From: a virus
Length of the DNA: 41,589 nt
Reading direction: 5' to 3' (one strand)
Virus record (IMG/VR): IMGVR_UViG_3300025117_000133
Coordinates: 1-41,589 of that record
Both the position numbers and the translations under genes were made by a program. The notes under the pieces were generated by a model. The model did not search any database and was not told where the DNA came from. It saw only the letters and a program-made list of their open reading frames with translations. Below, piece after piece: positions 31,405 to 39,097 of this stretch; positions within the stretch are counted from its first letter, which is position 1, and each line of letters opens with the position of its first letter.

Positions 31405-31499
31405 ATCATACTCGGCCTCGAAGTCGCCCGATTTCGAGAGGGGGTAGCTCACGGTCGTTGCCCCCTTTTGCCGAGGAAATCAATAGGAGGATGAAATGA
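31401..31499 (+). CDS. possible 32-aa basic peptide
   Basis: GTG 31401 overlaps the previous stop as GTGA, and its stop overlaps ATG 31496 as ATGA. The peptide is Arg/Ser/Pro-rich. The same DNA forms a terminator hairpin (31440-31469), so coding is uncertain. Confidence 0.35.
   Translation: MNHTRPRSRPISRGGSSRSLPPFAEEINRRMK
31437..31469 (+). terminator. terminator or attenuator hairpin
   Basis: GGGGGTA (31440-31446) pairs with TGCCCCC (31459-31465), followed by TTTT. It lies between the first early gene and the pentapeptide protein. If active, it would limit early transcription until antitermination or read-through; it overlaps a possible small ORF. Confidence 0.5.
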
Positions 31500-32170
31500 A
31501 ATTCGAGATCAAGTCAAGATGGAATGGCTCGGTTCTTTTCTCTCTCGAAACCGAATCATTGAAATTGTGCGTTGAGGCGGCGGTTAGGGCGCGCGCAGAC
31601 CTTCAGGGCGCATACCTTCGGAGCGCAGACCTTCAGGGCGCATACCTTCAGGGCGCATACCTTCAGGGCGCAGACCTTCAGGGCGCAGACCTTCAGGGCG
31701 CAGACCTTCAGGGCGCAGACCTTCAGGGCGCATACCTTCAGGGCGCATACCTTCGGAGCGCATACCTTCAGGGCGCAGACCTTCAGGGCGCATACCTTCA
31801 GGGCGCATACCTTCAGGGCGCAGACCTTCAGCGCGCAAAAAACGCCGAGCAAGCATTTGCTCAAACTCTCATCGTCCCTGAAGGCTCTCTGATTGTTTGG
31901 AAAAGGTGTAACAGGGGTATCATTGTCAAGATGAGAGTACCCGAGGATGCAAAACGGTCAAACGCCACTGGGCGGAAATGCCGCTTTGAATTTGTTGACG
32001 TGCTTGAATTGTTCGGCGGTCACGTGGGCATATCCCAGCACGACAAAAAAACAGAATACCGCGTCGGCCAGCGTGTGATTTGTGATAAATGGGACGATAA
32101 CCGTTGGAACGAATGCTCTGGCGGGATACACGCTTTTCTGACTCGCATTGAGGCAGAGAATTTCCAATGA
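31496..32170 (+). CDS. pentapeptide-repeat protein with DUF5758-like C-terminus, 224 aa
   Basis: ATG 31496 follows AATAGGAGGATGA. After a 33-residue start, 16 repeats of A-(D/Y)-L-(Q/R)-(G/S) (residues 34-113) should fold as a square beta helix. The C-terminal domain (LIVPEGSLIVWKRCNRG to GGIHAFLTRIEAENF) resembles the DUF5758 domain often attached to phage pentapeptide proteins. Pentapeptide proteins can mimic DNA and inhibit gyrase (MfpA, Qnr), but this one is short and strongly repetitive, so that role is only a possibility. Confidence 0.85.
   Translation: MKFEIKSRWNGSVLFSLETESLKLCVEAAVRARADLQGAYLRSADLQGAYLQGAYLQGADLQGADLQGADLQGADLQGAYLQGAYLRSAYLQGADLQGAYLQGAYLQGADLQRAKNAEQAFAQTLIVPEGSLIVWKRCNRGIIVKMRVPEDAKRSNATGRKCRFEFVDVLELFGGHVGISQHDKKTEYRVGQRVICDKWDDNRWNECSGGIHAFLTRIEAENFQ
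31595..31834 (+). repeat. 16 tandem 15-base units coding the pentapeptides
   Basis: Sixteen in-frame units of the form GCAGACCTTCAGGGC or GCATACCTTCAGGGC run without interruption. Only four sites vary (codon 2 A/D or Y, and CAGGGC versus CGGAGC). The near identity at synonymous positions suggests recent expansion. Because of the period of 15, several other frames are also open on both strands; these are by-products. Confidence 0.95.
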
Positions 32171-37326: not shown

Positions 37327-38424
37327 TTGAACCATGTTGATCTCTTTAGCGGTATCGGTGGTTTTGCTCTCGCAGCGTCTTGGTGTTGGGGCGATGAATA
37401 CGTGAACTTAGGTCATTCAGAGATTGAAAAGTTCCCCTGTCAGGTCTATCACAAGCATTTTCCAGAGAGCAGGTGTTTAGGTGACATCACGAAGATTGAT
37501 TGGGGAGAATTTGAAGGACGGGTTGGCCTCGTCACGGGTGGCTTCCCCTGTCAGCCCTTCTCTGTCGCCGGCAAGCGACGAGGCAAAGAAGATGACCGTC
37601 ACCTCTGGCCGGAAATGCTTAGAGCAATCCGCGAGACTCGGCCGCGCTGGGTTATTGGCGAAAATGTTGCTGGAATCATCCGAATGGAACTCGACCAAGT
37701 GTTATCTGACTTGGAAGCTGAGGGCTATCAAACGGAACCGTTTCTTATTCCAGCTTGCGCCGTCAATGCCCCACACAGAAGGGATAGAGTCTGGATTATT
37801 GCTCACACCGGGGACGGAGGATCACAAGAGCGACGGACCGAAAACAATGGAGAAGTGGAGAGAGGCGCAAAGCAAGGGAAAGCGTCCAGCATCTTCGGCG
37901 CAACGGCTCCGCAATCAAATAGTGGTATTAGGAACTCCAACGGGATCAATGGCGACAATGCAGGATCTGATTCAAGCATCGTACTCAAGCTCGAAGCGGC
38001 CAAAGTATTGCGACGCACAACTAAACACGCCCCGGACAACCCCGCGAGCAATGAGTTACCTGTTACCGACCCCCAAGAAGTGGAACTCAACAGGAGCCGG
38101 CGAACATGGTCAGGGCGGGAAGGACTTGCAGACAGCGATCGCACTTCTACCAACCCCAACCCCAACCACACCGCGACCTCACGACAACGAGGACACGGCG
38201 GGGAAATACTACGAATCACAGAATCAGAAAGACTTAACGGGAACGGTTGGCGAGAACCCTGGCTTGAAGTTGCAACCCGCCTTTGTCGAGTGGATGCAAG
38301 GGTACCCAATCGGGTGGACAGACTTAAAGCCCTCGGCAACGCGATAGTTCCTCAAGTCGCATTTGAGATTATGAAAGCAATCAGGGAATATGATTCTATG
38401 AACCAGTCAGAACGGAGCGCGTAA
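37327..38424 (+). CDS. DNA cytosine-5 methyltransferase, 365 aa
   Basis: TTG 37327 has CAGAGGAAC at good distance. Motif I (DLFSGIGGFALA, residues 5-16), motif IV with the catalytic Cys (GGFPCQPFSVAGKRRG, about 71-86), motif VI (GENVAG, about 112), motif VIII (HRRDRVWII, about 150) and motifs IX-X (NRVDRLKALGNAIVP, about 327-341) are in order. The enzyme transfers a methyl group from SAM to cytosine C5, probably to resist restriction. The 170-residue section between VIII and IX is low in complexity and unusual for a recognition domain; a second open frame lies there. Confidence 0.92.
   Translation: MNHVDLFSGIGGFALAASWCWGDEYVNLGHSEIEKFPCQVYHKHFPESRCLGDITKIDWGEFEGRVGLVTGGFPCQPFSVAGKRRGKEDDRHLWPEMLRAIRETRPRWVIGENVAGIIRMELDQVLSDLEAEGYQTEPFLIPACAVNAPHRRDRVWIIAHTGDGGSQERRTENNGEVERGAKQGKASSIFGATAPQSNSGIRNSNGINGDNAGSDSSIVLKLEAAKVLRRTTKHAPDNPASNELPVTDPQEVELNRSRRTWSGREGLADSDRTSTNPNPNHTATSRQRGHGGEILRITESERLNGNGWREPWLEVATRLCRVDARVPNRVDRLKALGNAIVPQVAFEIMKAIREYDSMNQSERSA
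37592..38347 (+). CDS. second reading frame inside the methyltransferase gene, 251 aa
   Basis: In the +1 frame, ATG 37592 (GAGGCAAAGAAG upstream) opens 251 codons that start MTVTSGRKCLEQ, contain SEWNSTKCYLTWKLRA, FLFQLAPSMP and several LLPTP repeats, and end PAFVEWMQGYPIGWTDLKP. These blocks look like a real protein and resemble ORFs and C-terminal segments I recall from phage methyltransferase regions. The frame may be an overprinted gene, an older methyltransferase C-terminus now out of frame, or a conserved by-product of the methyltransferase DNA. A longer frame from GTG 37481 exists. Confidence 0.5.
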   Translation: MTVTSGRKCLEQSARLGRAGLLAKMLLESSEWNSTKCYLTWKLRAIKRNRFLFQLAPSMPHTEGIESGLLLTPGTEDHKSDGPKTMEKWREAQSKGKRPASSAQRLRNQIVVLGTPTGSMATMQDLIQASYSSSKRPKYCDAQLNTPRTTPRAMSYLLPTPKKWNSTGAGEHGQGGKDLQTAIALLPTPTPTTPRPHDNEDTAGKYYESQNQKDLTGTVGENPGLKLQPAFVEWMQGYPIGWTDLKPSATR

Positions 38425-38452: not shown

Positions 38453-39097
38453 ATGAATAGACCAGAAATGCTAAAAATGTTTATTAGCGAGGACGATCTG
38501 CGCCCCGCGATGATGAATCCGTGGACGTGGGAAGGACAGACGGGTGCGACGAACGGACACATTATGATATTGTTGCCGGGAGTAGATGCCGAGTATAAAC
38601 CGTGCGAACTCGGAATTAGATCTGTGTTGACGCCCGAAGTGGAGGGGATTGAATCAATCGACGTGAAATCTCTCTGCGCCGCGATGGAGCGAATACCGAA
38701 AGTCGAGAGGCTTGATCCAAGGGAAGTCGAGTGCGAAACGTGCGACGGCGAAGGGGAATACAAATGCTTTGTATGCGGCTCAGAGGCGCATTGTGATGAT
38801 TGCGACGGTAAAGGCAAAGTCACAAAGAATGTCAAGCCGACCGGAATCTTTATTCCTGACGATAACGCGAAGATAATTATTGACAAGGTTCCCTTTTCTG
38901 TTCGATACCTGAAAAAGATTCTCGTTGTGGCGCAGGAACTCAATGTGGCTGAAATCAATCACAAGACCGGGCCGGAACCCGCGCGCGGTCATTGGTTCAT
39001 GGTGGGCGAAGCGCGCGTCCTTCTGATGCCAATGCGTCTTGATCCAGAGGCAGACGAACATATTGTCACCTATCGCAAACTCAAAGTATCAGCGTAG
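38453..39097 (+). CDS. sliding-clamp-like protein with DnaJ-type zinc insertion, 214 aa
   Basis: ATG 38453 follows GGGCGGAGAG. The N-terminal part (GATNGHIMILLPG) and the end (VPFSVRYLKKILVVAQEL, then ARVLLMPMRL) look like the strands and helices of beta-clamp-like domains. Between them, residues about 93-122 carry four C-x2-C pairs with Gly-rich spacing (ETCDGEGEYKCFVCG, DDCDGKGK), as in DnaJ zinc fingers. A role in replication or DNA processing is possible. The clamp relation is a weak pattern match. Confidence 0.6.
   Translation: MNRPEMLKMFISEDDLRPAMMNPWTWEGQTGATNGHIMILLPGVDAEYKPCELGIRSVLTPEVEGIESIDVKSLCAAMERIPKVERLDPREVECETCDGEGEYKCFVCGSEAHCDDCDGKGKVTKNVKPTGIFIPDDNAKIIIDKVPFSVRYLKKILVVAQELNVAEINHKTGPEPARGHWFMVGEARVLLMPMRLDPEADEHIVTYRKLKVSA

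Follow-up and report, generated by a model that had tools for sequence, protein, structure and literature searches.

Overlapping reading frames within a phage cytosine methyltransferase gene probably encode two chains of one C5 methyltransferase

What is encoded by a second long reading frame that lies open inside a phage gene for a C5 cytosine methyltransferase? The question is raised by a viral sequence of 41,589 nucleotides (IMG/VR record IMGVR_UViG_3300025117_000133, positions 1 to 41,589; hereafter the window, meaning the whole stretch of DNA analysed), for which a preliminary description based on the letters alone had claimed two long overlapping frames and had offered as explanations either overprinting or a shift of the methyltransferase's C-terminal half into another frame. 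Both frames are confirmed, the +1 open reading frame occupying positions 37481-38347 inside 37327-38424, and all the peptides quoted in that description are present; the +2 frame is open for no more than 180 nt. The analysis shows that both frames are protein-coding and which parts of each are constrained, and it finds the same module in one chain elsewhere. The best explanation, and in our judgement a very probable one, is that the locus encodes a two-chain C5 methyltransferase from overlapping frames, although the joint requirement for the two chains, their assembly, activity, specificity and expression are all inferred.

Table 1. Features of the two overlapping frames, in window positions.
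Feature	Positions	Strand	Basis or remarks
Frame 1, C5 cytosine methyltransferase, putative alpha chain	37327..38424	+	TTG start, 365 aa; PF00145 3e-43, phrog_363 4e-76
Frame 1 motif I, DLFSGIGGF	37339..37365	+	sequence
Frame 1 motif IV, GGFPCQPFS (catalytic PCQ)	37537..37563	+	sequence
Frame 1 motif VI, WVIGENVAG	37648..37674	+	sequence
Frame 1 motif VIII, APHRRDRVW	37768..37794	+	sequence; handover of selection to frame 2 directly downstream
Frame 1 unconstrained spacer, frame 2 under selection; target recognition domain position	37804..38277	+	omega in relatives, window versus L002
Frame 1 motif X, LKALGNAIVPQ	38323..38355	+	sequence
Frame 2 (+1), putative beta chain	37481..38347	+	288 aa, phrog_1008; GTG 37481 or TTG 37523 start
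Frame 2 anchor EAKKMTVTSGRKCLE, conserved	37580..37624	+	alignments of relatives
Frame 2 WNSTKCYLTWK...FLFQLAPSMP, conserved, predicted beta hairpin	37685..37771	+	alignment; pLDDT 75-85
Frame 2 TP/LLPTP repeat units (LLLTP, LGTPT, LNTP, LLPTPK, LLPTPTP)	37796..38164	+	sequence
Frame 2 motif IX-like segment LQPAFVEWMQGYPIGWTDL	38270..38326	+	actinophage same-chain equivalent; helix pLDDT 75-83

Frame 1 matches the C5 methyltransferase profile PF00145 over positions 1-323 of 324, and motifs I, IV (PCQ), VI (ENV), VIII and X are all present in its chain; motif IX of a single-chain C5 enzyme is not in frame 1, and a motif IX-like segment sits in frame 2. An HMM search of the frame-2 protein, which the preliminary description had proposed, gave a divided answer, with a match to phrog_1008 (5e-24, residues 15-283) but none to PF00145. 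Profiles of frame 2 and of its C-terminal part likewise gave no useful match to solved structures. phrog_1008 is the frame-2 family itself (matched by 101 of 101 members), and Pfam searches of 101 frame-2 members found no family common to them. It carries the label 'DNA methyltransferase', yet its 101 overlapping frame-2 matches are without catalytic motifs. The AlphaFold model of frame 2 was of low confidence (pTM 0.29) and had no fold match in the PDB; we infer that such a poor model might be expected if the chain folds only with a partner. The relatives hold 0-7 PTP units before the C-terminal motif, and the consensus ending of the family is L-[NQS]-P-x-[FW]-V-E-[WE]-[ML]-M-G-[FY]-P-x-[GD]-W-T-x-L.

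Frame 2 could in principle be a chance open frame that mirrors the conserved motifs of frame 1, but we regard this as vanishingly improbable. The +1 run is open for 864 nt, whereas the longest run was 852 nt among 20,000 synonymous permutations of the frame-1 codons and 783 nt under the codon usage of the window (20,000 reshufflings per scheme), so that 0 of 20,000 in each scheme were as open. Scored with a frame-2 profile constructed without the window sequence, the real frame 2 reached 255.8 bits. Reshuffles that preserve frame 1 averaged 78-91 bits with a maximum of 136, which lends the chance reading some support, since it means that the similarity of frame 2 to its family is in part a mirror of frame-1 motifs. 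The codon periodicity of frame 2 between motifs VIII and IX, present in 57 of 61 pairs of relatives, also speaks against chance. The reshuffling test and the codon-rate test together rule out a chance or mirror frame. Frame 2 is a real protein-coding gene.

The overlap is shared widely. Homologues in which frame 2 carries stops while frame 1 is kept, which the preliminary description had named as a refutation, were sought among the 80 viral loci nearest to the window methyltransferase (L001 is identical, the rest mostly 34-56% identical over the best segment), and none of the 80 lacks the frame-2 family. One internal stop was seen, at L029:456-1487, where a single frame-2 stop lies near 805 with frame 1 intact and the sister locus L043 is open; it is either a sequencing error or the mark of a decaying copy. 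Among the relatives read, open +1 runs measure about 550-1270 nt, whereas +2 runs do not exceed 252 nt. Across a wider collection of 274 loci, comprising viral contigs, bacterial and archaeal contigs (the bacterial ones spanning many phyla) and annotated phages, 273 carry the frame-2 family in +1 overlap with the methyltransferase, the sole exception being a mycobacteriophage with methyltransferase and frame-2 family in one frame. Because most of the later loci came from frame-2 queries, the unbiased figure is that of the 80 found through the methyltransferase. Motif IX lies in frame 2 and motif X in frame 1 at 260 of the 273 overlap loci. Both frames are annotated in the Paenibacillus phages Bloom and Shelly ('g55 internal gene'), in E. 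coli phage K1G (ORF31/ORF30) and in fTaEco01; other records annotate just one of the two. A literature search limited to open-licence papers found no phage description of this overlapping-frame arrangement, which is weak evidence because only such papers were covered.

The preliminary description had proposed substitution rates in both frames as a check, and these reveal constraint in frame 2. Codon-position and omega tests drew on 74 independent close pairs, 70-97.5% identical; in the +1 overlap the third position of frame 1 is the second of frame 2, and the third position of frame 2 is the first of frame 1. The fastest position was the frame-1 third both before (0.40) and after (0.38) the overlap, and between motifs VIII and IX it was the frame-1 first (0.30 vs 0.14 at the third), with the first-position rate exceeding the third in 57 of 61 pairs there and in 1 of 64 outside. 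Omega for frames 1 and 2, respectively, was 0.14 and 0.82 before the overlap, 0.21 and 0.53 over motifs IV-VIII, 0.93 (0.85-1.02) and 0.34 (0.30-0.39) between VIII and IX, 0.34 and 0.36 around motif IX, where both frames are constrained, and 0.20 and 0.70 after the overlap. Between VIII and IX, then, frame 1 has no target recognition domain under constraint. The switch of selection to frame 2 falls no more than 30 nt downstream of motif VIII, and the switch back to frame 1 about 30 nt ahead of the frame-2 stop. The window itself shows the same stretch differing from the nearest relative, L002, at 33/65 for codon position 1 and 8/63 for position 3 (Fisher p = 4e-6), and against relatives the stretch scores 91.8 bits in frame 2 and 23.6 bits in frame 1. 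Since frame 2 overlaps frame 1 and evolves under purifying selection, the overprinting reading holds. The accompanying suggestion, that frame 1 becomes low in complexity where selection acts on frame 2, applies between VIII and IX but cannot be extended to the whole overlap, which is not under selection in frame 2 alone.

The handover of selection from frame 1 to frame 2 directly after motif VIII is also what a programmed +1 frameshift near that motif would produce, giving one long chain that starts with the N-terminal half of frame 1 and continues into the C-terminal half of frame 2. We consider this highly improbable because the fusion would be without motif X, which is kept in frame 1 and constrained there (omega 0.20), because frame 2 is already constrained upstream of the handover, and because frame 2 is enriched for a start of its own: of 102 non-redundant loci, 36 have an ATG with a Shine-Dalgarno sequence 20-40 codons ahead of the anchor, where resampling of frame-1 codons predicts 4.4. 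A QLxLF motif, which we take to be sliding-clamp-binding-like, lies near the frame-2 start in 46 of the 102 (0.74 expected; for example L003:2700-2745, L079:3200-3235 and L105:2441-2500). Together, these two enrichments near the start favour independent initiation over frameshifting. QLxLF does not occur in frame 2 of the window, and the start codon there is uncertain, the candidates being GTG 37481, with AGG alone upstream, and TTG 37523, with AAGGA upstream.

What frame 2 may contribute is suggested by relatives that carry its C-terminal module in one chain with the catalytic motifs. Canonical phage methyltransferases run in one frame from PTLTxxxGG units to LTPRECFRLQGFPD (motif IX) and motif X, and in actinophages (DillTech15 gp66 and many others) motifs I-VIII, LLPTP units, FPEWMMGWPAGW (EWMMGWPAGW) and motif X also lie in one frame. 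The claim that the frame-2 ending resembles main-frame segments of other phage methyltransferases is borne out by these actinophages, which keep such a segment in the main frame. Motifs IX and X are 20 residues apart in the actinophage one-frame form and about 17-23 in other single-frame enzymes, and across frames they are 35 nt apart in most overlap loci read, compared with 17-23 residues in one chain. The LLPTP stretch of the single-frame group has frame-0 periodicity (third 0.20, first 0.10), so constraint stays with the module, whatever its frame. In a structural model of the fused L277 protein both ends are well folded and the repeats between them stay disordered; the model matches M.HhaI and M.HaeIII (E about 1e-13). 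There is also a third form, a split gene with motifs IX and X together in +1; closely related actinophages (L277-L318) alternate between one-frame and split-frame methyltransferases. In a tree of the catalytic half the single-frame enzymes group together and the one-frame and split actinophage forms are intermixed, but the tree resolves neither the root nor how often the overlap arose, and within the large overlap clade some loci labelled as split are truncated contigs. Frame 2 thus looks like the small-domain half of a methyltransferase (target recognition plus motif IX), in keeping with the proposal that a C-terminal half moved frame. The link to the actinophage proteins rests on motif order and in-frame fusions. 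The identity of motif IX rests on those fusions and on motif resemblance, because frame 2 alone has no match to PF00145, to solved structures by sequence, or to any known fold.

The absence of any match to methyltransferases by sequence or fold for frame 2 by itself, its constraint also opposite motifs IV-VIII (omega 0.53) and the QLxLF motif near its start in many relatives would suit an overprinted gene that has nothing to do with forming the methyltransferase and encodes, for instance, a regulator or an anti-restriction protein. We nevertheless think this quite improbable because actinophages join the C-terminal module of frame 2 to motifs I-VIII and X in a single frame, and because frame 1 is neutral precisely at the position of the required target recognition domain, so that frame 1 alone would be without one. 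We caution that the two-chain reading has points against it: the long N-terminal part of frame 2 opposite IV-VIII is constrained although a bare small domain would not need it, the distance from IX to X is 35 nt across frames, the frame-2 start in the window is weak, and there are no expression data.

Under the two-chain reading, which we prefer, the alpha chain (frame 1) would provide the large domain for catalysis and cofactor binding, with motifs I-VIII and X and an unconstrained spacer where a target recognition domain is expected, and the beta chain (frame 2), probably made from its own internal start, would provide target recognition through LLPTP-type repeats together with the motif IX-like segment. 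The two are predicted to combine as an active methyltransferase acting on the phage's own DNA, most likely as an escape from host restriction. Self-protection is inferred as the likely role because no restriction enzyme or other nuclease partner was recognised among the neighbouring genes scanned. The methyltransferase adjoins replication genes. Directly downstream (38453-39097) lies a gene for a protein with a Cys-rich CETCDGEGEYKCFVCGSEAHCDDCDGKGK stretch (phrog_20807, unknown function), and positions 31496-32170 encode a pentapeptide-repeat protein with a C-terminal DUF5758 domain.

The arrangement recurs in hundreds of other phages and, if the two-chain reading is true, many annotated 'complete' phage cytosine methyltransferases would be half of a two-chain enzyme; recoded (codon-optimised) clones might then look inactive or be misassigned, because recoding destroys the second frame. 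The same-strand overlap is unusually long and widespread, and selection switches frames at domain borders, which argues that a domain has been relocated to the other reading frame. One-frame, split and overlapping relatives all exist in the family, making the origin of the overlapping genes testable. A broader proposal, speculative and on present evidence unlikely to hold, is that of a phage-wide two-chain class whose beta chain serves as an exchangeable target-recognition module with a variable number of LLPTP units, in many relatives docking to the sliding clamp via its N-terminal QLxLF and thereby coupling methylation to replication, and in which lineages move the module between frames.

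Among known systems, M.EaeI is a C5 methyltransferase of two polypeptides, like M.EcoHK31I, whose chains, according to what Lee, Kam and Shaw reportedly found in 1995, come from overlapping frames and are both needed in vitro. The large chain of M.EcoHK31I carries motifs I-VIII and X and the smaller chain motif IX, and the predicted target recognition domain is reported to lie in the larger (PMC3404938). The window resembles this enzyme in that frame 1 has I-VIII and X without IX. Its frame-2 segment resembles IX and sits at the place of IX in actinophage fusions, but has no direct profile match, so that a motif IX in the small chain is only putative. It differs in that its target-recognition stretch is neutral in frame 1 and constrained in frame 2, that is, in the small chain, which makes it a variant of the M.EcoHK31I type rather than a member; it also belongs to a family with LLPTP repeats that numbers hundreds of phage loci. 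These differences are drawn without a sequence comparison with M.EcoHK31I. M.AquI, a two-chain enzyme with an alpha/beta split, has motif IX and a portion of the variable region on its small chain (PMC3404938), but motif X is there too, as in the actinophage split form and unlike the window. The label of phrog_1008 is silent on the location of this family inside another methyltransferase gene. DillTech15 gp66 and its relatives have modules like those of the window (I-VIII, LLPTP repeats, F.EWMMGWP and X), but arranged in a single frame, or split so that IX and X fall together in +1, whereas motif X of the window is in frame 1; Pharaoh (gp79/gp78) was assigned to the split form solely because its two annotated genes overlap. 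Multispecific SPbeta-type methyltransferases hold several PTLT-like units between motifs VIII and IX, as the window holds LLPTP units, but do so in one chain and one frame.
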